The notes under the pieces were generated by a model. The model was not told the DNA's origin, ran no database searches, and saw only the letters and a program-made list of their open reading frames with translations. This document shows, in pieces, positions 2,840 through 51,239 of a stretch of DNA of 64,000 bases. Both the position numbers and the translations under genes were made by a program. Each line of letters begins with the position of its first letter. Position 1 is the stretch's first letter. The DNA comes from Candidatus Nitrospira neomarina (GTDB lineage Bacteria; Nitrospirota; Nitrospiria; Nitrospirales; UBA8639): positions 1,736,001 to 1,800,000 of the forward strand of contig NZ_CP116968.1 of assembly GCF_032051675.1 (NCBI RefSeq). The letters run 5' to 3'.

Positions 2840-5800
2840 TTACTTTAAATCCACCTCAACGTAGTGATCCCGGCGGTCGTCCACCAGGTGGATCCTGCCT
2901 TGCGGTCGCCCTGTCTCATCTACGCCGACTCCATTGATCTCGACACCGTCCATCATTAAACGGCTCACATGTTCCGGCTTTTCACCAACACGCTTGAGGG
3001 TGATGTGATAGACGGTCTCGCGAAAGCGATAGTGGATGTTGTATGACTCCCAATGGGCCGGGATACACGGGGCAATGCACAGATGGTCCACCTCCAGGTG
3101 CAGGCCCAGGAGTGTTTCCACGGTGAGCCGGTACATCCAGCCTGCCGCTCCGGTGTACCATGTCCACCCGCCCCGGCTGGTGTGTGGCGGCGCACCGTAA
3201 ATATCCGCGCACATGACGTAGGGCTCGACCTTATAGCGTTCAATTTCATCCGGGAGACTCCCGTGATTGATGGGATTGAGCAGAGCGAACAATTCCCACG
3301 CTCGTTCCCTGTCACCCAACATGGCAAAGGCCATCGTCGTCCAAATGGCGGCGTGAGTGTATTGGCCACCATTTTCGCGAACGCCGGGCACATAGCCTTT
3401 AATATAACCGGGTTCAAGGTCTGAGGTGTCGAATGGCGGAGTGAGCAGTTGAATGAGCTGAGCCTCGCGTCGCACCAGACGTGTGTCCACCGCCGCCATC
3501 GCCTGGCGGGCTCGATTGCGATCGCCGCCGCCCGAAATGACCGCCCAACTCTGGCTGATCGAATCAATCCGGCATTCGGCATTCTCGGACGAACCCAAGG
3601 GTGTGCCATCATCGAAATACGCCCGCCGATACCATTCGCCATCCCAGGCGTGGGCTTCAATATTGTCGCGCAGCAACGAAGCTTGCCCAGTGCACACGTC
3701 TGCAAACGGCTCGTCGCCTCGACGACGGGCCAGGCCGGCAAACAGCTGAAGGTTTTCATACAGAAACCAGGCCAGCCACACACTCTCACCCTTGCCATCA
3801 CGACCGACGAGATTCATCCCGTCGTTCCAATCGCCGCACCCCATGAGGGGTAATTGATGTTCACCGAAACGTAATCCGTGTGTGATTGACCGCACGCAAT
3901 GTTCATAGAGACTGGCCACTTCAGTCGAACGTTGCGGCTGGTCGTAGTATGCCTCCTCTTCCGGATTCAACTCACGGCCCTCGAGGAAATGGACGGACTC
4001 GTCGAGGACTCCCGTATCGCCGGTGGCCAGAACATACCGACAGGCGGCATACGGAAGCCACAGATAATCATCGGAGAAATGCGTGCGTACGCCTTGTCCA
4101 TTGGGCGGATGCCACCAATGTTGTACGTCCCCCTTACGGAACTGACGCTCGGCACAACGAAGCAACTGCTCACGGGCGAGCCATGGGGTGGCATGAATGA
4201 GCGCCATGGTGTCTTGCAATTGATCGCGAAACCCGTAAGCCCCACCGGACTGATAATACCCGCTACGGCCCCAGAGCCTGCAGGACAACGTCTGGTAGAC
4301 CAACCAACCGTTGGCCAACACGTCCAACGCTTGATCCGGCGTCTCCACATGCACCGCGCCCAACGTCCGGTTCCAGTGGTTCCACACCGCTTCCAACGCC
4401 CAACGTGCCCCAGCCGGCCCACCGAATCGTTCGATAAAATAGTGCGCCTCATCGGTGTTGCGGGCTGCGCCGAAGATGAACACGATCTCACGTTCCTGCC
4501 CCTCGACCAGTTCGATCGGGGTCTGTATGGCCGCGCATGGATCCAGGCCCGCACCGGTTTTGCCGGATAAACGCTTGAGGCGCATCGCAGCCGGGCTGGC
4601 CAGGGAGCCATTGCGGCCAATGAACTCTGTACGGTTTCCGGTCACCGTGCGCTCGCGCTCGCTAACCTGCACAAAAACCGTTCGATTGGCACATTCACGG
4701 CCATACGGATTGCGCGCAAACAGGGCCCCGCTGTGCGGATCGGTTTCGGTCACAATGTGCATCATATTGGTGTGGCGCCATTCACCGAGCACCAACTCCC
4801 AATACCCGGTCAGCGACAATCGGCGCGGCCCCTTCGAGTGGTTCCGCAGCTTGATCACCACAAACTTTACCGGCGCGTCCATGGCGACATAGGTGAACAG
4901 TTCCGAGGCGATGCCGGCTTCGTGATGCTCAAACACGCTGTACCCGAACCCGTGCCGACACACATAGCCGGACCGACCGGATGCGGGCAATGGCGTCGGG
5001 GACCAGAACGCACCGGTTTCCTCGTCCCGAATGTAGAGCGCCTCGCCGCTACTGTCGCTCAGCGAATCATTATGCCAGGTGGTCAGGCGGAACTCGTGCG
5101 CGTTTTCCACCCAGGTATACGCGCTCCCGCTCTCGCTGAGGACCGTGCCAATGTGCGGGCTGGCGATGACATTCGCCCAGGGCGCCGGCGTGTGTTGACC
5201 AGGTTCGAGGGTGACGACATATTCGCGCCCATCGGGCGTGAAGCCACCCAGACCGTTACAGAAAATTCGATCACGGGCCGCCAAGGGTTGGGCCGGTAAC
5301 ACTGCCGGTAGCCGCAATGACTCCAATCGGTCCGGCACACGCACGACCGGGACGAGGCGCTCCACCTGCTCAAGTAAGGTTTCGGCGGTATCGGTCAGCA
5401 CGACCCGGGCGACCGTCTGGAACAAGACCCGATCCTCCTCCGACAGTTCTTCGGCACGTCGCACGAAGACCCCACCCGGTCTGTCAAGAATTTGCGCTTC
5501 GGGACCCGCATTGATCAGCCCCATGATCTGGTCTTGCAGAACCGCGCGATAGCCCGAGAAATCCTCGTTCACGATGACTAAATCAACAGTCAACCCCTTC
5601 ATGCGCCAATAGGCATGGGCTTGCAGCACTTGCTTGACCAGGTCAATGCGGTTCCGGTCGCCAATACGGAGCAGCACGATCGGAAGATCGCCCGAGACGA
5701 CAAAGCGCCAAAGCCCTGACTGGCCCAGCTGGTTGCGGGCAATAACACTCGACGCGGCACGGCGCAAGCCATTGGCGAAAATGACCGAGGTGGCCAGGCG

Positions 5801-8800
5801 GCCATAAACCTGAGCCTCCGCTTCAGTGGCGTTGAGATGACGCAGCACCTCCTGACTTTGGAACCAGGCCATTTCAAAGGCACGCTCAACGAAGTGCCGG
5901 TCACAATACTTCTCAAGCAGTACCAATGCGGCCTCGCGGGTTTCTGCGACACCGGAGATGATCTGCACGGTGGCCGATTCATCGGATGATAAGGAGAGGG
6001 TGCGGCGGATGGCCACGATAGGATCGAGCACCGAACCATCCGTATTCGACAATGGCGACGAACGATCATCGCTTTCCAATATCTCAGGGTTGGCTGCCGT
6101 TCGGCCCCGCCCGATGAATTTTGAGCGATCCGTCTCGTATGACGGCTCGTCGGCCACCGCCCCTGGCGCGGCCAACAGGTGAAACATCCACGGCGTTGCC
6201 TCCCCCGGTGTGCGGGCACGCCGCCGGCAGAGGATCGCCTGACGGTCCGGCAGGATTTCAGTTTGTACGAACAGGTTACTGAACGATCGATGGGCCAGGT
6301 CGGCATTCAGGGGGGCTAACACGACCTCCGCGTAACTGGTGACCTCGATATGACGGATACGAGTCGACAAGTTGGTGAGCGTGACGCGTCGGATTTCAAC
6401 ATCGTCTTCAGGTGATACGCTGACTTCGGTGTGCACTTCAATCCCCTGGTCCCGCCGCCGGTATTCGGCGCGCCCCTGCACAAAAATTGCTTCATAGTGA
6501 TCGGCCTGGCGTAATGTCGGTTGATACGCGGTGGACCAATATCGTCCCGAGTCGCGATCGCGCAAGTAGATGAATGTGCCCCAAGAATCGCACGTGACGT
6601 CCTCGCGCCAACGGGTGACAGCCAGGTCACGCCAGCGACTATATCCGCCACCGGCATTGGTCGCCATGACGTGATACCTTCCGTTGGATAACAGATGCAC
6701 TTCAGGTATCGGTGTGTTCGGGTCGATAAATACACGCATGATGGCGCCGCCTTCCGTAGCGGCAGGTCGCGCGGCGGCACTTACTTCAGCCGCGTGCGGA
6801 TGCAACGTCGCTCCCTTCTTCGGCACACGCTCCTGCAGCAACAATTCCGTCGCCCGTACGTGAGGGGCAGACATGAAACGGCGCTGCATCGGCCGATTGA
6901 GCAGAACATGCGCAAAGGCCAACAGGCTCATACCTTGATGATGCGCCATGAATGTGCGCACGATGGCGTGATTCTTCCCTCGAGGCACGCGTGAGGGCGT
7001 GTAATCCACCGCTTCGTAGAATCCGTAGATGCCACAGAATCCATTGGTAGCCATAGTCTGTAAGTTATGACAGGCTTCTTGCGGCATCACGGTAAGCGCC
7101 AGCGCGCTGGCGTAAGGCGCGATGACCAGGTCGTCTCCCAGCCCACGCTTAAAGCCCAGCCCGGGGACGCCAAACGCCCGGTATTGATAGACGTGGTGCA
7201 TATCGGTGGCGTTATAGCAGGACTCGGAAATACCCCAGGGCACCGCACGCTGTCGTCCGTATTCAATCTGGCGCGACACGACAGCCTTGCAGGTCTGTTC
7301 CAACAAGGTATTCTGGTAACTCGGCATGATCAGTTGCGGCATGAGATACTCGAACATCGAGCCGCTCCACGAAATCAAACTTACGGCGCCGCCATAACTG
7401 GTCAACTGGCGACCGAGTGAAAACCAATGCTTTTGCGGGAGCTGTCCCTGCGCGATAAGGAGAAAACTTGCCAGGCGTGCTTCTGATGCCAGCAGATCGT
7501 AACAGGACGGATCACGGCGCCGTTCCCCCACATCGTATCCGATGGTCAGCAAACCACAGGACGCATCATAGAGAAATTCAAAATCCATCACCGCCAACTC
7601 GCGACAACGATTCACCAAATCGTCGATGATTCTGATCCGCTCCACCGCACCCGTATGCGGGGATACGCCCATACCGGCGGACGATAGCCCTTCCGTGCCC
7701 ACAGTTCTCTCTCTGGCCAAGACCGCCAATGTCGGAGTGTTGGTAAAATGCCGTGGCTCGGGCACCAACCATCTCAGGTCATCCCGCAGTGCGCAGGATT
7801 GCTGATCGAATGCCTGCGCCCACTGATACAGTTCGCCATCGATATCGCTATCCGCCGGGAGCCAGGCCACCAGTTCCTCCGCGGTGCGGTGAATTTCTCC
7901 CAGCAGATGATCGGCAGCCGCTAATGTCTGTGGCTCCCCGTTCAGAGTGAGTGTGTCCAGTTTGTCTTGAAGAACCTTGATTTTTTTCGCAAGGTCCGGG
8001 GCTGGTATCGAAGGCACATGTTCGGCAAGCACCTGCAGGGTGTCCTGCAGCCCCCGAAATAGGCACGAGGACAGCACCGGCTGATCTTTCAACTCGGCCA
8101 ATCCCGCTTGCAAGGTGAGCAAGCTGCCAGCCAGGTTTCCGCTGTCCACCGACGAGACGTAGAGGGGACGAAGCGGTTTCAGCGTGCGTGTGTCGTACCA
8201 GTTATAGAAATGGCCGCGGTAGCGTTCCAGCTTTTCCATCGTCGCCAAGGTGTGATCCGTACGCCGCAGAAATTCTCCGGCGGAAATGTATCCGAAATCA
8301 TACGCAGACAAGTTCGCCAGGAGCGCCATGCCGATGTTTGTCGGCGAGGTGCGGGAGGCGATGCCCGAAGCAGGATGTTCCTGAAAATTATCGGGTGGCA
8401 GCCAATTGTCCTCAGGACTGACAAACTTCGCGAAGAAACGCCAGGTTCGCCGAGCCGAGCCACGAAGGAAGGCCCGTTGCTCAATGGTCAAGTCCGGTAC
8501 GGGGCCCATAAGGGGCAGACTGATCCACCAGCCGACGATTGGCGATCCCAGCCAAAGCAACAAAACGGGAACACAGAAAAGCCACTCCTCCGGCCGGCTG
8601 ATCCCTAATGCGAAGGTCAGCATGACCGCAAGAGCAGGCCCGATCCACATCTCCATAAAAAAATCAACCAGTGTCCGGCGCGCATTGCGACTGACATAGG
8701 ATCGCATATGCCAGAGTAACAATCCGCGTCTCGTGAACAGCATCCGCACACCCGAGCGCAGAATCGCATTCAGGCTAATCAACGTCTCGTAGGGCAACAA

Positions 8801-11590
8801 GACTACCGTGAGCACCGCGAGCATAAACGGGTGGCCTGTAGATTTGCTTTTGAGGATGAGGTGCACCAGCCAATCCCGTTCTTCAGGTTTTCGGATGAGA
8901 TCGATCACGGCTCCGAGCACGATGGGCAAAAACACCACTCCTCCGACCAGCAGGGTCCAGACCCATGCCGATCCCGGACCAAAAAACCATCCACCTATCA
9001 GCAAGGCCAGCAGTGACGGGGACACGAGGCTGCGTCGAAGGTTGTCAAATATTTTCCACACCGACAAGGCTGTAAGCGGATTGGGTGGCCGCTGCGCCTT
9101 CGATCCATTTGATCCTGGCGGTCCGAGGACATGCGGGAGAAGCCAGCCGGCAAGCTGCCAGTCCCCGCGTATCCACCGATGTCGCCGGCTCGCCTCTATG
9201 GCATAACTGGCCGGATGCTCTTCAATGATATCAACATCGGTGACCAGTGCTGAACGTGCATACCCGCTTTCCAGCAAGTCGTGACTGAGAATGAGGTTCT
9301 CAGGAAAGCGTCCATCGACAGCCTGACGAAACGCATCCACATCGTAAATGCCTTTGCCGATGAACGACCCCTCCCCGAAAATATCCTGATACACATCCGA
9401 GACCTCACGCGTATAGGGATCGACTCCTGATTCACCTGCGAACAGTTTCGTAAACCGTGACTGCCCGGCACTGATCAGGCTGATTGACGTGCGTGGTTGA
9501 AGAATGGCGTAACCCTCCACGATACGCCCCTTGTCCGGATCGTATACCGGCCGATTGAGAGGATGAGCCATGTTGCCGATCAACGTGCGTGCCGTGTCAC
9601 GGGGTAGTTGCGTATCGGTATCCAAGGTGATGACATACTTGATTGAACTGAGGAGGGATGGATCACCGACAATATCCGAGAATGCCGTTTGCGCCTCTCC
9701 CCGCAGCACGGCATTGAACTGCTCCAGCTTGCCACGTTTGCGCTCATATCCCATCCACACCTGTTCGTATGAATTCCACATCCGAGGCCGGTGAAACAGA
9801 TAGAAGATGCAGGGGCGGTCCTCGCGGTAGGTCTCATTGAGCGCCTGGACACCTGCGCGGGCGCGGGCGAGCAACGCGTCATCATCCGGCAGCGTGCGCT
9901 CAGGCGCGTCACGAAAATCCGTCAACAAGGCAAAGAACAGATGGGGATCGCGATTCCCCAGATACCGGATTTCTAGGGCTTCGAGAAGCTCATCAATCTC
10001 TTGCGACCGGCTCAGCAAGGTGGGAACCACGACCATCGTGCGGTGAGCGTGTGGAATACCCCTTGAGAAATCCAAGCGTGGTAACGCCCGAGGCGCCAAG
10101 GTCAGCGTGACCACCAGATTCACCACCGAGACGGCCAGCGCCGAGACACCCATCATTCCGGTTATGCCCAAAAACCAGAACCGCCAATCACCCGGCCCGA
10201 ACCCCTCGAAAGAGAACAGCACCGCCGATGTCGCAAGGGCCGTGAGCAACAGGATGGGTCCGAGATACAGGATCAGGCGGAAAGGCCGACTGGCCCGGCT
10301 GACACGCAACTTCCACGACACCCGGCAATTCACCCCACGCTCCAGTAGGTCGCGTCCGTGATCGATCAGATAGTATCCGATATGGGAAGCACGGTCGTTA
10401 GAACCCATCCGCGCTGCAGCCGTTTGCGCAAGCACAATGGCTTGGCGTGCGACACCCCATTCACTGCACGAACTGCCTCTCGCCACATCTTCGATAACAT
10501 GCCGATACCGGTCGCGGGTGGCGAAATCCTGGTTGGTGTACATTCCCGTCGGGTCTTCACACAAGGTCTGTTCGACAACACTGAGCGACTCGACGTAATT
10601 CTTCCAATCCGTTGCGCCGATGAAACGCAGACTACCGATACTGTTGGCAATGGAGATCTGATTGGTCGCGGCCGTTCGACCTGCCGCCTCCGACAACTGC
10701 GTGGCCGTCACTCCTTGTTCAAGGAGTTTGTGTTCGACCCAGGTTTGAATGAACGCCATCGCTGGCCCCTGAGCCTGAAGTCTTGCGTAAAATTCCTCTA
10801 CAAAGGGTGCGGTCAACGGCACATCGGCATTGGCGAACTCGGCGAGCAACTGAACAAGCTGTTTCGGTTTTTCTTCGGCCGTCACGTGCATGCGGTCTGC
10901 CCAACTGATAGCCGCGTCGCGCTCCTCGCGCCGACGGGCAATACGCAACCCCACGCGACGAAGGTTTTCCAATAGCGCCAACTGCAGCATAATCGGGAAT
11001 GCCCACAATTCGCCCAGTCTTAACGGTTCAATGGTCTGGTAGGCGGCGACAAAATGGGTGGCATTGTCGCTGTCGACACGACCGTCCATATGAGAGATCA
11101 ACTCCAGCGCCAGGTCATAGATTCTGGGAAAACCGGCTGACGGGCCATCAGCCAGTCGCGGCAACTGCCGGCTGTATCCTCGCGGCAGATGCCGACGTGC
11201 CAGAACGATCTGCTGCTCAATGAGATAAAAATTATCAAGCAACCATGCCTCTGCCGGGACGATCCGTTGTCCGGGCGTCACGGCGGCGGTCACCAGATCA
11301 TACGCCGCCAGCAGCACACGCTCATTGTCCCCCAGCCGTGGTAATAACCTGTCCGGCCCAGGGTGCGGATCGAGTGTATGCTGTCCAGCGAGCGTGACCG
11401 CATGACGTTTTAATTGCTCGATGCTGAACAGCTCCGAGCGCAGCAACTCTGTATCCCCTGCGTCACGCAACACATTCCGTGCAGGTAATAACAATCCGAA
11501 TTTTTTGCCGAAAATGGTAATGATGATGACATTCTCCTCGCTCGAATTGGGTCGTCCGAGCAGTACTGGTCTTAGACCTGGGTTTGGCAA
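2840..11590 (-). CDS. ndvB: Cyclic beta-1,2-glucan synthase (NdvB/Cgs type)
   Basis: A single 2916-residue inner-membrane protein, close to the usual 2800-2900 residues of rhizobial/Brucella Cgs. It should polymerise UDP-glucose into beta-1,2-glucan, trim it and cyclise it for export to the periplasm. Visible order: an N-terminal soluble region; membrane segments near residue 440; a GT84 glycosyltransferase with DTDTQLPRD near 657 and RHRWIRGDW near 805; further membrane segments at about 850-1020; a glycoamylase-like region near 1360; and two GH94-like (cellobiose/chitobiose phosphorylase) blocks, starting near 1630 and 2130 and including GDWNDGMN near 2591. The longest frame starts at a TTG (11588-11590) just after an in-frame stop and has no clear ribosome site, so the real start may be slightly downstream. 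It converges on the multicopper oxidase, 51 bp between stops. Confidence 0.93.
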   Translation of the reverse strand: MPNPGLRPVLLGRPNSSEENVIIITIFGKKFGLLLPARNVLRDAGDTELLRSELFSIEQLKRHAVTLAGQHTLDPHPGPDRLLPRLGDNERVLLAAYDLVTAAVTPGQRIVPAEAWLLDNFYLIEQQIVLARRHLPRGYSRQLPRLADGPSAGFPRIYDLALELISHMDGRVDSDNATHFVAAYQTIEPLRLGELWAFPIMLQLALLENLRRVGLRIARRREERDAAISWADRMHVTAEEKPKQLVQLLAEFANADVPLTAPFVEEFYARLQAQGPAMAFIQTWVEHKLLEQGVTATQLSEAAGRTAATNQISIANSIGSLRFIGATDWKNYVESLSVVEQTLCEDPTGMYTNQDFATRDRYRHVIEDVARGSSCSEWGVARQAIVLAQTAAARMGSNDRASHIGYYLIDHGRDLLERGVNCRVSWKLRVSRASRPFRLILYLGPILLLTALATSAVLFSFEGFGPGDWRFWFLGITGMMGVSALAVSVVNLVVTLTLAPRALPRLDFSRGIPHAHRTMVVVPTLLSRSQEIDELLEALEIRYLGNRDPHLFFALLTDFRDAPERTLPDDDALLARARAGVQALNETYREDRPCIFYLFHRPRMWNSYEQVWMGYERKRGKLEQFNAVLRGEAQTAFSDIVGDPSLLSSIKYVITLDTDTQLPRDTARTLIGNMAHPLNRPVYDPDKGRIVEGYAILQPRTSISLISAGQSRFTKLFAGESGVDPYTREVSDVYQDIFGEGSFIGKGIYDVDAFRQAVDGRFPENLILSHDLLESGYARSALVTDVDIIEEHPASYAIEASRRHRWIRGDWQLAGWLLPHVLGPPGSNGSKAQRPPNPLTALSVWKIFDNLRRSLVSPSLLALLIGGWFFGPGSAWVWTLLVGGVVFLPIVLGAVIDLIRKPEERDWLVHLILKSKSTGHPFMLAVLTVVLLPYETLISLNAILRSGVRMLFTRRGLLLWHMRSYVSRNARRTLVDFFMEMWIGPALAVMLTFALGISRPEEWLFCVPVLLLWLGSPIVGWWISLPLMGPVPDLTIEQRAFLRGSARRTWRFFAKFVSPEDNWLPPDNFQEHPASGIASRTSPTNIGMALLANLSAYDFGYISAGEFLRRTDHTLATMEKLERYRGHFYNWYDTRTLKPLRPLYVSSVDSGNLAGSLLTLQAGLAELKDQPVLSSCLFRGLQDTLQVLAEHVPSIPAPDLAKKIKVLQDKLDTLTLNGEPQTLAAADHLLGEIHRTAEELVAWLPADSDIDGELYQWAQAFDQQSCALRDDLRWLVPEPRHFTNTPTLAVLARERTVGTEGLSSAGMGVSPHTGAVERIRIIDDLVNRCRELAVMDFEFLYDASCGLLTIGYDVGERRRDPSCYDLLASEARLASFLLIAQGQLPQKHWFSLGRQLTSYGGAVSLISWSGSMFEYLMPQLIMPSYQNTLLEQTCKAVVSRQIEYGRQRAVPWGISESCYNATDMHHVYQYRAFGVPGLGFKRGLGDDLVIAPYASALALTVMPQEACHNLQTMATNGFCGIYGFYEAVDYTPSRVPRGKNHAIVRTFMAHHQGMSLLAFAHVLLNRPMQRRFMSAPHVRATELLLQERVPKKGATLHPHAAEVSAAARPAATEGGAIMRVFIDPNTPIPEVHLLSNGRYHVMATNAGGGYSRWRDLAVTRWREDVTCDSWGTFIYLRDRDSGRYWSTAYQPTLRQADHYEAIFVQGRAEYRRRDQGIEVHTEVSVSPEDDVEIRRVTLTNLSTRIRHIEVTSYAEVVLAPLNADLAHRSFSNLFVQTEILPDRQAILCRRRARTPGEATPWMFHLLAAPGAVADEPSYETDRSKFIGRGRTAANPEILESDDRSSPLSNTDGSVLDPIVAIRRTLSLSSDESATVQIISGVAETREAALVLLEKYCDRHFVERAFEMAWFQSQEVLRHLNATEAEAQVYGRLATSVIFANGLRRAASSVIARNQLGQSGLWRFVVSGDLPIVLLRIGDRNRIDLVKQVLQAHAYWRMKGLTVDLVIVNEDFSGYRAVLQDQIMGLINAGPEAQILDRPGGVFVRRAEELSEEDRVLFQTVARVVLTDTAETLLEQVERLVPVVRVPDRLESLRLPAVLPAQPLAARDRIFCNGLGGFTPDGREYVVTLEPGQHTPAPWANVIASPHIGTVLSESGSAYTWVENAHEFRLTTWHNDSLSDSSGEALYIRDEETGAFWSPTPLPASGRSGYVCRHGFGYSVFEHHEAGIASELFTYVAMDAPVKFVVIKLRNHSKGPRRLSLTGYWELVLGEWRHTNMMHIVTETDPHSGALFARNPYGRECANRTVFVQVSERERTVTGNRTEFIGRNGSLASPAAMRLKRLSGKTGAGLDPCAAIQTPIELVEGQEREIVFIFGAARNTDEAHYFIERFGGPAGARWALEAVWNHWNRTLGAVHVETPDQALDVLANGWLVYQTLSCRLWGRSGYYQSGGAYGFRDQLQDTMALIHATPWLAREQLLRCAERQFRKGDVQHWWHPPNGQGVRTHFSDDYLWLPYAACRYVLATGDTGVLDESVHFLEGRELNPEEEAYYDQPQRSTEVASLYEHCVRSITHGLRFGEHQLPLMGCGDWNDGMNLVGRDGKGESVWLAWFLYENLQLFAGLARRRGDEPFADVCTGQASLLRDNIEAHAWDGEWYRRAYFDDGTPLGSSENAECRIDSISQSWAVISGGGDRNRARQAMAAVDTRLVRREAQLIQLLTPPFDTSDLEPGYIKGYVPGVRENGGQYTHAAIWTTMAFAMLGDRERAWELFALLNPINHGSLPDEIERYKVEPYVMCADIYGAPPHTSRGGWTWYTGAAGWMYRLTVETLLGLHLEVDHLCIAPCIPAHWESYNIHYRFRETVYHITLKRVGEKPEHVSRLMMDGVEINGVGVDETGRPQGRIHLVDDRRDHYVEVDLK

Positions 11591-43286: not shown

Positions 43287-43937
43287 TTACTTGGAAGCCA
43301 GTTTCGTCTGAATTTCTGAAAATGTTTTCTCAGCCTCAGGGAGAAGATCATCCCGGTTTCCCGCCCTGGCAAGCTCGAGTGCCTTTTTCGCTAAATCAAA
43401 AGCCTCTTGATCCTCTCCCCGCTCGGCACACGAACGCGCAACGACCATGCGAGCATTAATGGATTGAGGTTCCTGCTGAATCACCTGCCGCAGCATCGCT
43501 TCGCCTTTTTCGGAGTCTCCTCCAAATAACCCGGGGACTTCGATGAGGATCGTCCCTTTGGAAGAAAGGGCATCCATATGATTAGGATTGAGCAACAGGG
43601 TCTTGTCCAGAGCTTCCATCATCCGTCCATATTCAAACACCGAGAAAAGCACTTCTCCGTTGGCGCGCATGCGCTCGCCGATATTACAGAACAGAGCAAA
43701 ATGCGCATCGGCTGAACGTTCGTCCAGCCCCACCGCCCTTTCAGCCAACTTTCGCCCCCGCTCAAAATGATCAACCCGAACCGTTTCCTCCTTCGCCCGT
43801 CTCCCTTCATGGCATTCATCCATCGCCTGTTTTGTCAGAACCTGAGAAGATTCTTCAGCCCAGACTCCGGGAATCACCCACCAGGAAAGCAGCAAAGTGG
43901 CCAATAAGATATAAAGCATTCGATGAGTAACGGTCAT
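43287..43937 (-). CDS. Periplasmic TPR-repeat protein
   Basis: A 216-residue exported protein with an N-terminal signal peptide (cleavage near VWAEE, residue ~28) and a helical TPR-like body: alternating Ala/Leu helices, LNPNHMDALSSKGTIL, PGLFGGDSEKGEAML and QEPQSINARMVVARSC. It resembles TatT-like/TPR lipoprotein-type scaffolds found with TRAP transporters, but no transporter gene is adjacent. The ATG at 43937 is used (AAGGA 10 bases upstream); a TTG three codons earlier is less likely. Confidence 0.8.
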   Translation of the reverse strand: MTVTHRMLYILLATLLLSWWVIPGVWAEESSQVLTKQAMDECHEGRRAKEETVRVDHFERGRKLAERAVGLDERSADAHFALFCNIGERMRANGEVLFSVFEYGRMMEALDKTLLLNPNHMDALSSKGTILIEVPGLFGGDSEKGEAMLRQVIQQEPQSINARMVVARSCAERGEDQEAFDLAKKALELARAGNRDDLLPEAEKTFSEIQTKLASK

Positions 43938-44165
43938 CTTGTACAAGTCCTTCGTGCGTTACACCGGTGACTTCCAGCCAATGAAAGTGCAGACAAAAAC
44001 AATTAAATATTTTAAACCAAGTCAACCGCTTATGCCAACGCCCAGGATTAGAATTTTCCCCTTACGATTACACAGGGGAGAGACATTTAGGGAGTGTTGA
44101 ATAATAAGGATGTTCAAGGGCAAATTTTCCCAGGATTAGATTACTCATCAAAGGCTCCTGGTCGG

Positions 44166-44300
44166 TTCAAAAAAGCATGCCCTGAGTCTTTCCGAAGGGT
44201 CCGTCCAGCAAGGCCGCAGCCGTTTTTACGCGCGGAGCGTACGCGTAGTACGTGAGCACGGAAAAATGGCGAGAACGCCGCTGGCGGCTTTTTTCAACAG
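44166..44300 (-). repeat. Dispersed repeat copy A (MITE/REP-like)
   Basis: Inverted copy of the element at 49473-49586. Read on the minus strand it begins TGTTGAAAAAAGCCGCCAGC, passes CGTGCTCACGTAC and GCGGCCTTGCTGGAC, and ends in GCTTTTTTGAACC. The ends form an imperfect terminal inverted repeat of about 12 bp. Compared with copy B it has an extra GGAAAGACTCAGGGCATG segment near one end. It carries no gene. Confidence 0.85.
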
Positions 44301-44367
44301 ACCCATTTACTGTTGGGACAACGAGAAAGAGTCTATGAGCAGAGCTCATGCTGTGAATGAGCGGTTG

Positions 44368-45612
44368 TCAGAACGTTCCCAAAGTGGTGCTCCGCGTCTT
44401 TTGGAGCCATCGTGCAGCCCCAACACCCGCAGCATGGCCACTGGCAAAACAGGCAGTTAGAAGATAGCCACCGGTTGGGGCTTCCCAATCCAGCATTTCT
44501 CCCGCACAAAAGACTCCGGGCACGGTACGGATCATCAGTCGCTGGTCCAAGGCTTCGAAGGCCACTCCGCCGGCCGTACTAATCGCTTCCTCTAACGGAC
44601 GGGGCGCGACAAGACGCACGGGCAGCGATTTGATGGCCGACCCGAGCAGCACGGGGTCGGCAAAATCTTGCTTTGCCACACATTCCCTTAGAAGGCCGGC
44701 CTTTACCCCTGAAATACCAACCCGGCGCTGTAGGTGGCTAGCCATCGAGCGTGAACCACGCGGCCGTGATAGTTCTGAAATGAGCCGCGACACATCACGA
44801 TCGGGCGCCAGATCCAATCGAAGAAGGGCCGTGCCTGTTTTCACGATCTCGTCGCGTAACCATGCCGAAATCGCATAAATCACTCCCCCTTCAAGGCCGG
44901 TCTCCGTCAGAACGAATTCACCCTGTTGCCGGAACTCAACGCCCTCGTGAGTGGTTCCCGCAACGGCAACCGGCTTCACGGGATGGCCGGCATAGCGTCC
45001 GCGGAGGTGCGGACTCCAAGCCACATCAAACCCACAATTCGCAGGCTTTAGTGGTTCAATGGGAACACCCCGCCCGGCGAGCAACGGCACCCACGCCCCA
45101 TCGGAGCCGAACCGGGACCAACTGCCACCACCTAATGCCAACACCACTGCATCAGCAGAAACGTAACGATCCCCTTGCGGCGTGGCAAACCGCAGGGATC
45201 CGGTCTCGGCCCAGCCACTCCAGCGATGCCGCACATGAATCGCCAAACCGAGCTGGCGCAACCGGCGCAGCCACGCGCGCAAAAGAGGTGCCGACTTGAG
45301 GTCTGTGGGAAACACCCGTCCGGATGTTCCGATAAACGTCTCAACACCCAGTTCATGAGCCCACTCGCGTAACGCATCAGGGCCAAATCCTGCGAGCAAC
45401 GATTGGAACTGTCCCTGCCGGGAGCCATATCGTGCAAGAAATCTCTTTAATGGTTCGGAATGCGTCAGGTTGAGCCCACCCTTCCCCGCTAGCAGAAATT
45501 TTCGACCGACGGACGCCATTGCGTCATACAGATCCACGCATGCGCCCTCCGAAATCGCCGCCTCGGCAGCCATCAGACCAGCCGGCCCCCCGCCAATCAC
45601 CGCAATTTTCAT
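44368..45612 (-). CDS. BaiN/HI0933-like (TIGR03862-type) flavoprotein
   Basis: A 414-residue FAD-binding protein. The N-terminal IGGGPAGLMAAEA binds the adenine nucleotide; GRKFLLAGKGGLNLTHSE is the family signature. C-terminal VPGVFCAGEMLDWEAPTGGYLL also fits. Members are putative NAD(P)H-dependent oxidoreductases; BaiN works on bile acids but most homologues have no known role. The start at 45612 (MKIAVIGGG) puts the Rossmann strand directly at the N-terminus and has AGGGA upstream, so it is preferred over 45633. Confidence 0.88.
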   Translation of the reverse strand: MKIAVIGGGPAGLMAAEAAISEGACVDLYDAMASVGRKFLLAGKGGLNLTHSEPLKRFLARYGSRQGQFQSLLAGFGPDALREWAHELGVETFIGTSGRVFPTDLKSAPLLRAWLRRLRQLGLAIHVRHRWSGWAETGSLRFATPQGDRYVSADAVVLALGGGSWSRFGSDGAWVPLLAGRGVPIEPLKPANCGFDVAWSPHLRGRYAGHPVKPVAVAGTTHEGVEFRQQGEFVLTETGLEGGVIYAISAWLRDEIVKTGTALLRLDLAPDRDVSRLISELSRPRGSRSMASHLQRRVGISGVKAGLLRECVAKQDFADPVLLGSAIKSLPVRLVAPRPLEEAISTAGGVAFEALDQRLMIRTVPGVFCAGEMLDWEAPTGGYLLTACFASGHAAGVGAARWLQKTRSTTLGTF

Positions 45613-45882
45613 AGTTCCCTGCTTCAACATCATGTCAGACCGGCACCAGGGTGAAAGTCAAAAGGCTTTCTCAGGTGACAATTGTCGGTTGACGTCCCTG
45701 AGCGTGCATTTCGAATTCCAGCCTAATCCATAGTCCCCTCAGAGAAAATTTACCGCACCAATTTTCTTTCATTCATAAAGTGAATTGCCCGAAGAGAACG
45801 GTTTTATTTAAGATAGAGTCAGTGCATACATCAGGATCACTTCTTCCCCTAGTAGACTTCACAAGACAGGAGGCCGGAATTC

Positions 45883-46050
45883 ATGGAGCAGGAAGAAATT
45901 CGACAATTGTGGGCCGACGGTGAGGATTGGATCATCAAACGCCAACACAATCAATACTTCCATCGTCCAGATGGAAAATACGGAGACTGGAAGCCCGGAC
46001 TTCCTCCCGGCGTGGTAAAGCCGGACGTCGACACCCTTTTTGATGTTTGA
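45883..46050 (+). CDS. Small conserved-looking protein of unknown function
   Basis: A 55-residue protein reading MEQEEIRQLWADGEDWIIKR and onward to VDTLFDV. Aromatic and charged residues alternate (W10, W16, Y25, F26, W36) and a PDGKYGDWKPGLPPG turn region lies in the middle. A strong AGGAGG stands 9 bases before the ATG at 45883, which is the main support. The stop overlaps a possible TTG start of the next gene (46047), so both may be translated together. Function unknown. Confidence 0.72.
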   Translation: MEQEEIRQLWADGEDWIIKRQHNQYFHRPDGKYGDWKPGLPPGVVKPDVDTLFDV

Positions 46051-46145
46051 ACGATGGACTCTCCGTCATCATCATCGGAACTCCTATATCTCAAAAACAT
46101 TCTTCACCTGATCAACCATTCCAGAAAGAATCCCCCACGACGCCT

Positions 46146-46541
46146 ATGCGAATTTCCGGACGTATCATTGGTCTGCTCAAGGAATATATGCATGACTTAG
46201 TCGAACAGGCCAAACAAGAGGAAGCCGCACATGCCAGCTTCGGATTTGCTTCCCAACCCTATCGGGCTGACGAGGCGATCTCAGATCTCCTGGCTATTTT
46301 GGATGACCGTATCGAATCAGAAGGCGTCCAGGTTGGCCTTCCCATCGAGTTTCTTCATCAGATGTGGACACTGTGCAATAAGGCAACCACGCACATTTCG
46401 GAAACCGTCTGGTTGAGAAAAAATCTGGATCAGGGCACCGGGTCGAAAGCGGAAGTCCGGCAACTCACCTACCAAGCCCTCATTACATTCCTGGAGGCTC
46501 AGCCCGAAGATGACGAGTCGGGAGACGCGACTCCAAACTGA
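46146..46541 (+). CDS. Hypothetical helical protein
   Basis: A 131-residue soluble, mostly helical, acidic protein (MRISGRIIGLLKEYMHDL...). No family recognised. The ATG at 46146 is chosen; an in-frame TTG at 46047 would add 33 unconserved-looking residues and overlap the preceding small gene. Its 3' end overlaps the 3' end of prmA by 43 bases on the other strand. Probably co-transcribed with the 55-residue gene. Confidence 0.6.
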   Translation: MRISGRIIGLLKEYMHDLVEQAKQEEAAHASFGFASQPYRADEAISDLLAILDDRIESEGVQVGLPIEFLHQMWTLCNKATTHISETVWLRKNLDQGTGSKAEVRQLTYQALITFLEAQPEDDESGDATPN

Positions 46542-47368
46542 ATGGCTAACCAGCCATCCCACTCCCTGACATGGCGTTGACGCCATCCGCACTCTGTACA
46601 CTGCCGGACAATCTCAAATTCATCTTCCTCCAGCAGCCCGGATACCACCAACTGTGTTTGCGGACCCCGCATCCTCGCAAATTGATCGATCACGTGAAGG
46701 ATCGTTCTGCGATCCAGGTTGGCAAGAATGACATCAAATGATTGGGCCGGAAGCGTGGCCAACGGGCAAGAGGACAGTGTCAATGCTTCTTGAATGTTGT
46801 TCACCACCGCGTATTCCCTGGCACAGTCGAGCGCCGTGGTATCCACATCAATTCCCAGCGCACTGGTCGCTCCCAGGCGCAATGCCGCCATCGCAAGAAT
46901 CCCGCTCCCCGTCCCCACATCCAGCACCCTCATGCCTGGAAGCCACGTGACCCCTTCCAACCATTCAAGAATCATTTGGGTCGTGGCATGATGACCGGTC
47001 CCAAACGCCTGCTTGGGATCAATAATCAATTCCACTCCATCCTCGGGCATCTCCATGGTGGCCCAACTCGGGCGAATGCCAATTCGACGGCCAATGCGAA
47101 TGGGCTGAACAGACGCGGCCCATGTGGCATTCCAATCCTGAGCCTTCACCGGATGAAACCGAAGAGCCCCTTCCGGAAGAGCCACACCCAATACGCTGAT
47201 CGCTGACCGGACCTGCTGAAGAATCTCTGCTCCATTCTTACTCCAATACAGCACGGTGGATCCCTCCGCGTCCCATGCTCCAAGAAATTCCTGGCAATCG
47301 AGAATCCCCGCTAACTCAGCGGCATCCACGGAAATGGGAATAGTAATTTCAAAGGCAGCCGCATCCAT
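46499..47368 (-). CDS. prmA: Ribosomal protein L11 methyltransferase
   Basis: A 289-residue SAM-dependent enzyme that methylates lysines and the N-terminus of ribosomal protein L11. N-terminal half: ferredoxin-like substrate-recognition domain (ITIPISVDAAEL...). C-terminal half: methyltransferase fold with PKQAFGTGHHATT, the SAM loop VLDVGTGSGILA, and ILANLDRRTI (the NPP-like N-L-D-R variant). ATG at 47368 fits the domain start; a longer frame to 47440 seems unlikely. It lies 5 bp after a short open frame on the same strand. Convergent with the helical hypothetical gene, overlapping 43 bp at the ends. Confidence 0.9.
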   Translation of the reverse strand: MDAAAFEITIPISVDAAELAGILDCQEFLGAWDAEGSTVLYWSKNGAEILQQVRSAISVLGVALPEGALRFHPVKAQDWNATWAASVQPIRIGRRIGIRPSWATMEMPEDGVELIIDPKQAFGTGHHATTQMILEWLEGVTWLPGMRVLDVGTGSGILAMAALRLGATSALGIDVDTTALDCAREYAVVNNIQEALTLSSCPLATLPAQSFDVILANLDRRTILHVIDQFARMRGPQTQLVVSGLLEEDEFEIVRQCTECGWRQRHVREWDGWLAIQFGVASPDSSSSG

Positions 47369-47373
47369 AGGAG

Positions 47374-47556
47374 CTATTCCATCGGTAAAGGTTTCCAAAA
47401 GTACGCGACTCCTGCCACCCAATCCTTGGCGGAAAGGCACAGAAGGCTCTCTTCAAATAGGCGCCAGCCATAAGGAGAAAAGGGGTTCATTAAGGGCTCT
47501 GTGCCATGAGAACGCGCCTGTCTGGTTGGTTCAATAGGCACCTCACGATATTCCAC
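47374..47556 (-). CDS. Candidate small gene upstream of prmA
   Basis: A 60-codon frame (GTG start at 47556, or ATG at 47490 giving 38 residues) whose stop codon TAG lies 5 bp before the prmA ATG, so translational coupling is possible. The C-terminal part NPFSPYGWRLFEESLLCL and AKDWVAGVAYFWKPLPME looks protein-like (aromatic, amphipathic helix). Neither start has a good ribosome site. Function unknown; this could also be untranslated leader. Confidence 0.4.
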   Translation of the reverse strand: MEYREVPIEPTRQARSHGTEPLMNPFSPYGWRLFEESLLCLSAKDWVAGVAYFWKPLPME

Positions 47557-47585
47557 GTTATTGACGGGATCACGCAGAGCGGCTA

Positions 47586-49478
47586 ATGTCCGCAGGCCCT
47601 ATGAAATGTACCACCACTGACAGACGAGAACAGGCGATTCTTCGCCTTATTCACCGCACCGAGCGGATGCAGGCGAAAGGCACCATCGCCAGCCGGCAAT
47701 TCAGCCGATGGAGAATGGGAACATTCCTAGCGGGAGCCGCTATCACGATCGGAGTGTATCAACAAGCGTGGTTTCATACCGGCAATGGTCTCCTGATTCT
47801 CTTCCTCATTGGATTTCTCACTATATCCTGGTTTCACCAGCGATTGAAATCCCGATTGCATCGATTACAGCTCTGGCTGGACATCAAAAAAGACAGCCTG
47901 GCGCGACTGCAACTTGATTGGCCACACATAGCCGCCTACGAACACCGGGCCCCTGAGCGACATCCATTCGCCATAGACCTCGACCTCACAGGTCCGCATT
48001 CTTTATTGAGCTTGATCGACACCACCTTTTCCTCCATAGGTCAACACCGCGTCGCCACCTGGCTTTTCCAGTCCAATCTTCCTGAACCGGACGGTCTCTC
48101 ATGGACAACCAGGCAGACCTTGGTGAAAGAACTCACTCCACTCACCCGTTTGAGGGATCGCTGTCTTTTAGCCAACCGGCTCATTAGCTCCGATCGGCTG
48201 AATGGAACCCGCATTCTTTCCTTGCTCGAAGCACCCGTCTCCATCAGGCATTTGCCGCTGATTATCTTCGCAGCATGTGCACTGACGAGTCTCACCATCG
48301 TCTTAGGACTCTGGACGCTCCTCGCGGGGACCCCGAATTTCTGGCTGCTTCCCCTGACCCTTTATATCGGAACCTATTTTCTCCTCTCGGGATCCATCCA
48401 CCCGCTTTTCGGCCGGGTGCTCACCCTTCATGAAGAACTGGAAAAACTTGTCAGCCTGATTACCGAACTTGAACAATCAACCTTCCTGCATCAACCAACA
48501 ATGCGACAGGTCTGCCAGCCTATTTTGACTCAACAGAATCGTCCGACTCAGAGCTTGAAACAGCTCAGCCGGATCTGTCAGGGGCTCAGCGTTAAAGCTC
48601 ATCCACTCGTGCATTTAGGCCTCAATGCTCTGGTGCCCTGGGACCTGTGGTTTGTCGGAAAACTCAATCGCCTCATCTCGCGCCTTCGCACGACACTTCC
48701 CGACTGGCTGGATACCATTGGGACAGTGGATGCCGCCGGTGCCCTTGCGCGTTATGCCTACTTGAATCCCGATTACCTCTGGCCACAACTCGAAACCACA
48801 AATACCACCCCGGACACTCAAGGACTGACCGCAGGCAGTCTCGGCCACCCGCTTATTGCCCGTGCGCATCGCGTGACCAATGATTTGGAGTTACGAGGGG
48901 AAGGCCATCTCCTTCTGGTGACCGGTTCAAACATGTCTGGAAAAAGCACCTTTCTACGAACGGTCGGCATCAATGTGTGCCTGGCTCAGGCAGGTGGTCC
49001 GGTGTGCGCCGTTATTTTTTCCTGGACCTGGTTGCGTCTCTATTGTTGCATACGAGTCACGGATGCCCTGGATGAAGGCTTGTCGTATTTTTACGCCGAA
49101 GTCAAACGCCTGAAAGTTATTCTGGAGGCGGTGGAAAGCACCAATCCTCACCCGGTCCTCTTTCTCATTGATGAAATCTATCGGGGCACCAATAACCGGG
49201 AACGCCTGGCCGGAAGCGAAGCCTTTGTGCAGGCCCTGCAACAAAGCCGTGGAATGGGAATGATTTCAACCCATGATTTGGAACTCACAGGATTGGCCAG
49301 TGGAAACGGGCATATTCAAAATGCCCACTTTCAGGAAACCGTTGAAGCAGGCACGTTGCATTTCGATTATCGACTGCGACCAGGCCCTTGCCCGACCACC
49401 AATGCACTCCGGATCATGGCCCAGGAAGGTCTTCCCGTCCCTCCCGATCATTCCACAAATCCACATAAGGGGTGTTGA
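47586..49478 (+). CDS. Membrane-anchored MutS-like ATPase
   Basis: A 630-residue protein with a C-terminal MutS domain V ATPase: Walker A GSNMSGKST near 446-454 and Walker B VLFLIDEIYRGTNN near 525, followed by the STHDLEL-type switch. The N-terminal half differs from classical MutS: two hydrophobic segments near 44-90 and two more near 220-270 suggest inner-membrane anchoring. There is no mismatch-binding domain I, so a role in mismatch repair is not implied. The last two codons before the stop and the stop itself come from the adjoining repeat element B. Divergent from prmA. Confidence 0.88.
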   Translation: MSAGPMKCTTTDRREQAILRLIHRTERMQAKGTIASRQFSRWRMGTFLAGAAITIGVYQQAWFHTGNGLLILFLIGFLTISWFHQRLKSRLHRLQLWLDIKKDSLARLQLDWPHIAAYEHRAPERHPFAIDLDLTGPHSLLSLIDTTFSSIGQHRVATWLFQSNLPEPDGLSWTTRQTLVKELTPLTRLRDRCLLANRLISSDRLNGTRILSLLEAPVSIRHLPLIIFAACALTSLTIVLGLWTLLAGTPNFWLLPLTLYIGTYFLLSGSIHPLFGRVLTLHEELEKLVSLITELEQSTFLHQPTMRQVCQPILTQQNRPTQSLKQLSRICQGLSVKAHPLVHLGLNALVPWDLWFVGKLNRLISRLRTTLPDWLDTIGTVDAAGALARYAYLNPDYLWPQLETTNTTPDTQGLTAGSLGHPLIARAHRVTNDLELRGEGHLLLVTGSNMSGKSTFLRTVGINVCLAQAGGPVCAVIFSWTWLRLYCCIRVTDALDEGLSYFYAEVKRLKVILEAVESTNPHPVLFLIDEIYRGTNNRERLAGSEAFVQALQQSRGMGMISTHDLELTGLASGNGHIQNAHFQETVEAGTLHFDYRLRPGPCPTTNALRIMAQEGLPVPPDHSTNPHKGC

Positions 49479-49586
49479 AAAAGGCCGCCAGCCGCGTTCT
49501 CACCCCTTGGCCGTGCTCACGTACTCATCCGTACGCTCCGCTCGTCCAAGCGGCTGCGGCCTTGCTGGACGAGCCTTTTTGAACAC
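49473..49586 (+). repeat. Dispersed repeat copy B (MITE/REP-like)
   Basis: Element of about 114 bp bounded by TGTTGAAAAAGGC and GCCTTTTTGAACA, which are inverted repeats with one mismatch. The interior shares CGTGCTCACGTACT, CGTACGCTCCGC and CGGCTGCGGCCTTGCTGGAC with copy A (44166-44300), which lies in opposite orientation. It begins inside the last codons of the MutS-like gene and supplies its stop codon. No coding capacity. Confidence 0.85.
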
Positions 49587-50038
49587 TCCACTATTTTTCT
49601 TTTGTGGACCTCGGTCACGCATCGGTTCATGAAAAGGCCACATATCTAAAATATTCAACAGCCTCACAAGCAGAATAATAGAAGGCGCCAACTCCCCGTC
49701 ATGCCTGCCGCCGGCTGCCCAAAAATTCACCCATCTGGTCATTCCCGACATTGCTTATCGGGAATCCATCTGAGACTTTTTCTGATGGATCCCCGCTGAC
49801 TAAATGCGGAAAAAACAGATGCAGGGTCATCACATTTTTCATTGGGAATCAATCTTGGCGTAATTCTGTCGAATTTGGCTCTCCTCTTAGTACTTGCGGG
49901 GCCACCTGATTGCACATTGTCATTCTGAGCCCACGGCGAAGAATCTGTGCCCAGGTCGAAACGCCTCGAGGCCCAGCCAGATCCAAAGGACGGAGCCGTA
50001 GCACAAAAAACCTCCGTCAAAAACGATGCAACCGGAAT
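49479..50038. other. Intergenic region with repeat and hairpin
   Basis: About 560 bases; the left part is repeat copy B, then an 8-bp hairpin at 49741-49765, then unremarkable sequence up to the zinc-ribbon gene. No gene recognised. Confidence 0.45.
49741..49765. repeat. Perfect 8-bp inverted repeat
   Basis: ATTCCCGA, a 9-base loop, and TCGGGAAT. No T run follows on either strand, so it is not a typical terminator. The GTCATTCCCGACATTG-like wording is frequent in dispersed intergenic repeats of many bacteria, so it may belong to a second repeat family. Confidence 0.6.
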
Positions 50039-50314
50039 TTAAGGAGTGATGAGGCGAACTTCGCTTTGAGCCTGATCGGTTTTAGAACCGGTGGAAGTCC
50101 CGCAATGGGCACAAAGGTATTCATAGAGACTTCCGGTAGGGAGCACTAAAAGAAGACGTTCACGGGCTGGCGTCGCGGTCTGACATTTTGGACAAAACAG
50201 CAACGACGCTCGAAGCGATTCGAATTGCTTGGGTGAGCCTGGAGGAGCCGGTGGACGAGCCCCACCCATCCGTGACGTTGGTCGGGGACCCGTAGGAAAT
50301 GGTGGTCTAGGCAT
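50039..50314 (-). CDS. Small zinc-ribbon protein
   Basis: A 91-residue protein. A proline-rich, flexible N-terminus (MPRPPFPTGPRP...) leads to a domain with two CxxC pairs: CPKC near 41-44 and CAHC near 68-71, a zinc-ribbon spacing. Between them ATPARERLLLVLPTGS forms strands. Function unknown; such ribbons usually bind nucleic acid or another protein. No clear ribosome site at the ATG 50314; M16 would be a shorter alternative. Confidence 0.68.
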   Translation of the reverse strand: MPRPPFPTGPRPTSRMGGARPPAPPGSPKQFESLRASLLFCPKCQTATPARERLLLVLPTGSLYEYLCAHCGTSTGSKTDQAQSEVRLITP

Positions 50315-50448
50315 ACGCAGATCTTAGCGAAGGGCCCTAGTCCGGTCAAGATTGCTTCATAGCATTAATAAAACCATATTGCATGACTCAACATTTCAAG
50401 CCACATCACTCATCTTTCACACCAACCCGCAGAATCTCCCGCTGAATC

Positions 50449-50928
50449 TTATCTCTGTGGATCCACTCCTCGCCTCTTGGCGATTTCTTGCGCGATAATA
50501 GCCTGCCAGCCTTGATTAAATAAGTCCCGGGTGGCCTGTATCGTGGGAATCGGAAGGGGCCCCGCTTCATGGGCTAACCGGAGTTGCTCAAAATTATCCA
50601 TCATGAGCGTCAACTGCTTGGCCGTAAACTCATTCGCAAGATCACTCTGTGCCCGCAGTCGCAGTGAGCGAAGCTCGACCAGATAGTCCTGATAAAAGAC
50701 CTGATCCCACGAATAATGAGCCTGCGATTCCCCGGCATGGGTTTCGAGTCTGGTTAAAAAAGCATCCATTTTTTTTTGGAGCGAGGTTGCCGTCCGATCC
50801 ATTTCCGGATCATAAGAAGAAATTAACGTGACGTGGCAACCAACCAACCCCAGTTGCAAACAAGCCAAAACCCAGAGAACCCATCGAACAGCAAAAGCGG
50901 AGGGAAATGTCATTATGTCAGATACCAT
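50449..50928 (-). CDS. Hypothetical lipoprotein
   Basis: A 159-residue exported protein: hydrophobic signal (residues 11-28) with lipobox LVGC (Cys31) followed by a helical mature part (SLQKKMDAFLTRLETH...). No family recognised. AAGGTG about 9 bases before the ATG at 50928 supports this start; the alternative ATG at 50913 would also keep the signal. Single gene. Confidence 0.75.
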   Translation of the reverse strand: MVSDIMTFPSAFAVRWVLWVLACLQLGLVGCHVTLISSYDPEMDRTATSLQKKMDAFLTRLETHAGESQAHYSWDQVFYQDYLVELRSLRLRAQSDLANEFTAKQLTLMMDNFEQLRLAHEAGPLPIPTIQATRDLFNQGWQAIIAQEIAKRRGVDPQR

Positions 50929-51239
50929 TGATAATTCACCTTCTGTTGAGATTCCAGATGGGAATCGCCCGCCGAACAGATTTTTTTGGGCCCCGGTCCG
51001 TTCCTCTCAGATTCACGACCTTGTCAGGCCATGAACCAGTTGGATCTGAATCTATTGTACCCACATGTGTCCATTTGTCTAGCAGGCTCCGATGACAAAA
51101 CCGACCCTCACTTAACTCTCGTCAACGACAACCCAGGGTTGGCGTGTTCGAGGCCACCGCAAATGCTATACATGATTCTGTCAATGATTGAGTGCTCTCC
51201 ATGGCCCCGAATGGCTCCCTCCCCTTCGCACTGGCGACT
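50929..51239. other. Gene-free interval
   Basis: About 310 bases between the VanZ-type gene and the lipoprotein gene. Nothing recognisable; the promoter of the lipoprotein should lie at its left edge. Confidence 0.4.

Follow-up and report, generated by a model that had tools for sequence, protein, structure and literature searches.

The stop codon of a MutS-like gene in Candidatus Nitrospira neomarina lies inside a mobile repeat unit placed on the end of the gene. We consider the following account probable as a whole: the unit inserted as mobile DNA and supplies the stop, it would have been imported into this genome on a tract of about 300 bp, its hairpin would act as a two-way terminator, and in a sister family (f3) more than a third of the units sampled, with the same hairpin, lie exactly on native stop codons. 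The stretch of DNA analysed, called the window here, is 64,000 nucleotides long; positions refer to it unless a genome or a locus is named, and the features are collected in Table 1. Taken alone, the change at the end of the MutS-like gene is small and probably neutral.

Table 1. Features of the MutS-like gene end and of the two repeat copies in the window.
Feature	Position	Strand	Description
MutS-like gene	47586..49478	+	Open reading frame, 630 aa; MutS domain V at residues 444-617 is the sole domain recognised
Stop codon TGA from the element	49476..49478	+	TGT TGA within TGTTGAA
Left flank at the expected target duplication, ACATA	49463..49467	+	CACA (49462-49465) recurs at the right flank
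Whole non-autonomous unit, subfamily B, 198 bp	49468..49665	+	Ends AGGGGTGTTGAA...TTCAACAGCCTC; from a 30-copy alignment and five empty sites
Long hairpin (copy B)	49473..49586	+	Branched consensus fold; 5' arm with an A-run, 3' arm with a T-run
Target duplication, right copy (ACAAG)	49666..49670	+	Located by aligning the five empty sites
Small ORF, convergent with the MutS-like gene	50039..50314	-	No Pfam match; conserved in seven relatives
Copy A, whole subfamily A unit	44090..44304	-	Exact 5-bp duplication TAAAT; foreign insert of about 25 bp in the hairpin; locus L159

A profile search matched residues 444-617 of the MutS-like protein to MutS_V (PF00488, E 8.7e-26); against NCBIfam no model exceeded its cut-off, the best being MutS with 114.4 bits for a cut-off of 480. 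The end of the gene reads CCA CAT AAG GGG TGT TGA AAA AAG, and the protein ends with H-K-G-C at residue 630. The six bases TGT TGA open the repeat (TGTTGAAAAAGG...), and the final cysteine codon (49473-49475) lies inside it. The original prediction, that copy B gives the gene its stop and that the last cysteine codon and the TGA derive from the element, is thus borne out. It had taken copy B to be the 114 bp of 49473-49586; this is a real repeat but only the hairpin half of a unit of 198 bp.

The site is empty in five relatives (G018, G016, G011, G002 and G015; loci L032, L033, L034, L037 and L038), where the junction reads AATCCACA/AGCCCCAAAATAG or close variants. In the window, the element sits between bases that are adjacent in these five genomes, four codons ahead of their native stop, a TAG located about 10 bases 3' of the junction. 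To the right of ACAAG, remains of the old gene end (CAGAATAATAG) are still present and now non-coding. The relatives end with Q-A-P-K (G018, G016, G015), Q-A-Q-K (G011) or Q-A-K-K (G002, whose alignment begins at residue 2), and all five stop, like the window, at residue 630 of the same register. The suspected alteration of the C-terminus is thus supported, but the truncation that had been offered beside it is not. The original prediction turned on where element-free relatives stop: the codon number is equal, but the sequence and the origin of the stop differ. The element is read in the only one of three frames in which TGTTGAA yields a stop, so that 630 residues are kept and the last four are replaced. 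Insertion exchanged the last four codons and the stop and left the length of the protein unchanged. Residues 627-630 fall beyond the MutS_V match, in a stretch that is variable among relatives, and the effect of the HKGC end on the MutS-like gene is probably negligible.

More distant relatives show other arrangements of the same gene end. G026, from another genus, carries a unit of its own at the MutS-like gene, with the stop TAG directly before it (AGC TAG/CAGGG...). G031, which belongs to the genus of G026 and has no element at this gene, stops at the same residue (CTAG), as does G034 (TGA). In G005 a hairpin of opposite orientation lies slightly downstream of the gene. The region of the small convergent ORF (50086-50285) is 88-96% identical across seven relatives. 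More repeat-like sequence (TCATTCCCGACATT...GGGAATCCATC) is found 3' of the unit, at 49730-49830, and occupies the same place in some relatives.

The unit belongs to a dispersed family. BLAST gave 41 matches to the repeat in the genome (scoring 40 of 92 first-look candidates), and the copy number is at least 64, a covariance model having matched 64/64 scored candidates from 2022 first-look candidates. When 30 genomic copies were aligned with their flanks, their similarity extended beyond the hairpin as far as a third motif of the TGTTGAA type. The unit has no coding capacity and measures 189-199 bp in 25/30 copies with both ends recognised, about 191 bp in subfamily A (19/30 copies) and about 198 bp in subfamily B, which includes the window copy. 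Short, imperfect terminal inverted repeats of the GGGnnTGTTGAA type are found on both sides. The exact end pattern GGGNNTGTTGAANAA matched the genome 87 times, against 0 for a backward-read control, and it placed the ends of copy A at genome positions 1780090 and 1780304; copies A and B lie in the window as an inverted pair, their arms being 87% and 83% complementary. Target duplications were scored as the five bases outside TGTTGAA and TTCAACA, which was possible in 25/30 copies (unscorable: L007, L008, L009, L011 and L019). An exact 5-bp duplication was present in 17 of these 25, compared with 0/600 mismatched flank pairs; subfamily A accounted for 16 (of 19) and the remaining copies for one (of six). 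The window copy's own duplication, ACATA/ACAAG, is decayed (3/5 bases match), and its exact boundary thus rests on the family. By its short non-coding unit, inverted ends, target duplications and empty sites, the family is a MITE, a non-autonomous DDE-type element. An 87-bp hairpin-less derivative (L160:135-221) has retained both ends and a 5-bp duplication, ACAAG.

A profile search of the window genome (G000) for the transposase family DDE_Tnp_1 (PF01609) gave no match. When the exact-end pattern was used to find inward-facing end pairs less than 3 kb apart and larger than the plain unit in this genome, only L158 was recovered. There (L158:1022-2452, genome 1893521-1894951), a repeat copy encloses a gene for an IS110 transposase (333 aa; PF01548, E 1.3e-25); this gene, with hairpin remains around it, is probably a nested insertion and not a driver. 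The window unit also lacks the marks of an IS5-derived MITE: it has no YTAR duplication, the 5-bp duplications of subfamily A are without YTAR, and the profile search of the genome gave no DDE_Tnp_1-type driver.

The sister family f3 is another family of the same order, sampled in 10 genomes, where 78 loci yielded 79 units having a left end; both ends were present in 37, of which two have doubtful right ends (lengths 273 and 277). Identical 4-bp flanks were present in 24/37 units (CTAG 13, TTAG 6, CTAA 3, GTAG 1, ATAG 1), and YTAR duplications in 22/37; mismatched f3 flank pairs were identical in 265/1332 cases, a figure that is high because the target itself is fixed. The ends of f3 units match those of an IS5-family insertion sequence in G053, an f3 genome (L137:852-2167, ends CAGGCTGCGGAAAAAC, TTAG duplication), whose transposase belongs to the IS5 family (NF033581, E 4.5e-83). 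Judged by its ends, this insertion sequence is a candidate driver of the f3 units. Driver-like ends were seen in this one of 25 DDE_Tnp_1 loci, drawn from 6/7 genomes; the other 24 loci had no matching end pair within the flanks examined. YTAR is indeed the target motif published for IS5 (PMC10359306, in excerpt).

Because YTAR is a pyrimidine followed by TAA or TAG, we tested the f3 duplications as stop codons. TAA or TAG was present at 79 duplication sites (51 left, 28 right). An open frame of 100 codons or more terminates at 30 of these, compared with 59 among 498 further YTAR sites in the flanking sequence. With codon-model gene calls, 28/77 duplication sites fell on stops versus 24/246 controls; stop-sited duplications made up 22/51 of left and 6/28 of right sites (p 0.08). 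Stratification by tetranucleotide gave an odds ratio of 5.4 (p 4e-8), in statistics that include related genomes and possibly orthologous insertions, count both flanks as two sites and use our own gene calls. In f3, then, the same hairpin is carried on IS5-type ends, and the target duplication preserves the stop at the native site. IS5-type targets may in this way provide a built-in safe harbour at stops, used by 28 of the 79 f3 units sampled, all on TAA or TAG.

This placement may also be a product of selection, purifying against insertions within genes or positive for copies at gene ends, with no preference beyond YTAR. The copies were sampled after selection, and insertions in coding sequence are near-absent (2/79 duplication sites by codon-model gene calls), as such an explanation would have it. 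However, stops exceed other non-coding sites 5.4-fold after stratification by tetranucleotide, and exclusion from coding sequence alone is thus insufficient. Selection favouring gene ends in f3 is possible, and we regard selection without any further preference as a serious contender that falls somewhat short of an even chance.

The hairpin itself is strongly structured. Copy B folds with -47.8 kcal/mol (z -4.45), and its other strand with -53.7 (z -3.96). A covariance model applied to 72/96 hairpin loci aligned 76 matches (74 distinct, three antisense to the near-palindrome), in which 92.8% of cells pair and 24/36 pairs changed on both sides. The covariation score was 0.237, compared with 0.099 in shuffled and 0.021-0.100 in slid alignments, a comparison favoured by the fitting of the alignment to the structure. 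Sense-strand copies mostly have the A-run (66/73) and the T-run (64/73). The model matches 57/59 genomes of the order, the window genome included, with no match in G025 and G035. In a sample of the phylum, 31/118 genomes match, 25 of them being the window genome or members of its order and six lying elsewhere in the phylum; 67 matchless genomes of this sample are not listed by kinship. A search of window positions 43500-51000 against Rfam (E up to 5) gave two sub-threshold hits, none on a repeat copy. Similar foreign inserts of about 25 bp (CCCTTCGG...CAGGGCA type) interrupt the hairpins of L159, L162, L166, L175 and others at one or two fixed places; a smaller repeat seems to target the hairpin.

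In the window genome, a well-scored coding frame terminates no more than 8 bases from one of the unit ends in 7/11 non-A copies, at the left end in L001 (the window copy), L002, L005, L006, L009 and L011 and at the right end in L004. This was so in 0/19 copies of subfamily A, which has no stop-codon bias; the placement was judged by codon scores, with right ends set at fixed length. Placement at gene ends thus belongs to the non-A copies. Among these the window copy stands apart: it lies four codons before the native stop and its stop comes from within the element, unlike the stop-sited units of f3. Convergent gene pairs are not enriched among the 30 copies (5 convergent, 15 tandem, 6 divergent, 4 unclassified), compared with 6 convergent, 21 tandem and 6 divergent pairs in the window, where the crude caller missed the ORF at 50039-50314. 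A terminator scan restricted to loops of 3-8 detected a site in copy A and none in copy B (9 in total versus 7.1 +/- 2.9 in shuffled sequence). With its A-run and T-run, the hairpin could halt transcription in both directions between the MutS-like gene and the convergent gene, and given such predicted bidirectional termination the loss of the old gene end would cost little. If the hairpin does terminate transcription, it would offer a simple route for mobile DNA to become punctuation between genes.

Two broader readings of the hairpin follow, and we hold both only tentatively. In one, the family is a terminator that is mobile and adapted to the ends of genes. A covarying hairpin, found across the order, would prefer TAA/TAG stops, keep the stop through the duplication and add a bidirectional terminator, and no fewer than two different transposition systems would have carried it (4-bp YTAR in f3, 5-bp in the window's genus). 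In the other, which appears to us possible but doubtful, the hairpin serves chiefly as a functional structured RNA or DNA, a terminator or a processing site, that selection keeps at gene ends, mobility being secondary. The strong covariation, the conserved A- and T-runs and the stop-codon placement in f3 all fit such a function, but mobility is evident from the empty sites and the fresh duplications, and the subfamily A copies lie away from gene ends. Moreover, covariation in a palindrome may also come from arm-to-arm templated repair, and the alignment was fitted to the structure.

How the element reached this gene was addressed by comparison with the two relatives that share the junction of the window: G013, whose unit is complete and contains an insert of 24 bp, and G003, which has a remnant with most of the unit deleted. 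The gene tree groups the window with G018 and G016 (supports 1.0), G018 being without the element, and G003 with G013 and G011 (supports 1.0 and 0.997); a tree built from the gene's last 240 nt was poorly resolved (supports 0.30-0.92). Inside the element, the window matches G013 at 116/119 and 76/79 positions, and 3' of it at 103/115 in the next 115 bases and 40/95 afterwards, versus 184/292 fourfold third positions of the gene. Because the window copy is near-identical to that of a more distant relative, this contrast in identity suggests that it was imported by homologous recombination and was not inserted in its own lineage. On the simplest reading, the first insertion would have taken place in a different lineage, and a stretch of about 300 bp with the element would then have been imported here. 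Alternatively, the element could be ancestral to the whole group and have been precisely lost from G018, G016, G002, G011 and G015. The junction common to the window, G013 and G003 agrees with this, but several precise losses would be needed, each restoring an uninterrupted gene end, and the agreement of the element against that of the fourfold sites would stay unexplained; we find this history improbable.

Exact target duplications and inverted ends are not expected from single-strand HUH transposition. A repeat of the REP/REPIN type, mobilised by a RAYT (Y1 HUH) transposase, might be suggested by the many dispersed palindromic copies, but was already disfavoured and is very improbable here, given the exact 5-bp or 4-bp duplications, the inverted ends and a unit of about 190-200 bp versus 20-40 bp for REPs (PMC3733652, in excerpt).

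Compared with MITEAba12, the present family is longer (about 190-200 bp) and differs by its conserved covarying hairpin, its 5-bp (window genus) or 4-bp YTAR (f3) duplications and the bias for native stop codons in f3. ISAba12, to which MITEAba12 is related, belongs to IS5. The two cases are alike in having a short protein-free unit with inverted ends resembling those of an insertion sequence of the same strain, target duplications and one copy that lies at a gene's 3' end and creates a new stop there (PMC6382973, in excerpt). MITEAba12 is 111-114 bp long with 9-bp duplications and, in the excerpted part of that account, no predicted terminator; its 3'-end copy cut the protein by 398 residues (PMC6382973), whereas the length of the MutS-like protein is unchanged. 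As in IS5 (PMC10359306, in excerpt), the duplications of the f3 units and of the insertion sequence in L137 are CTAG, TTAG or CTAA, unlike those of the window's subfamily A (5 bp, without YTAR) and subfamily B (decayed).

Other resemblances are by description. ERIC is likewise a dispersed non-autonomous element found across bacterial families and sometimes at the 3' ends of genes (PMC10969869, in excerpt); in the present family, insertion sites, duplications and one candidate driver insertion sequence are visible. Two repeats from other organisms, treated in the same excerpt, are SPRITE of Streptococcus pneumoniae, a terminator-like mobile repeat, and QMITE2 of Coxiella, mostly located in 3' untranslated regions; the terminator role of the present hairpin is a predicted one. 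MITEs derived from insertion sequences, MITEs at 3' ends and terminator-like repeats are thus already known (PMC10969869, PMC6382973, both in excerpt), and among open-licence PMC papers, judged by their titles and the start of their abstracts, we found no account of this Nitrospira repeat family or of stop-codon-sited or YTAR MITEs. Elsewhere in the window, the minus strand at 2840-11590 holds one open frame of 2916 aa, with a TTG start as listed.
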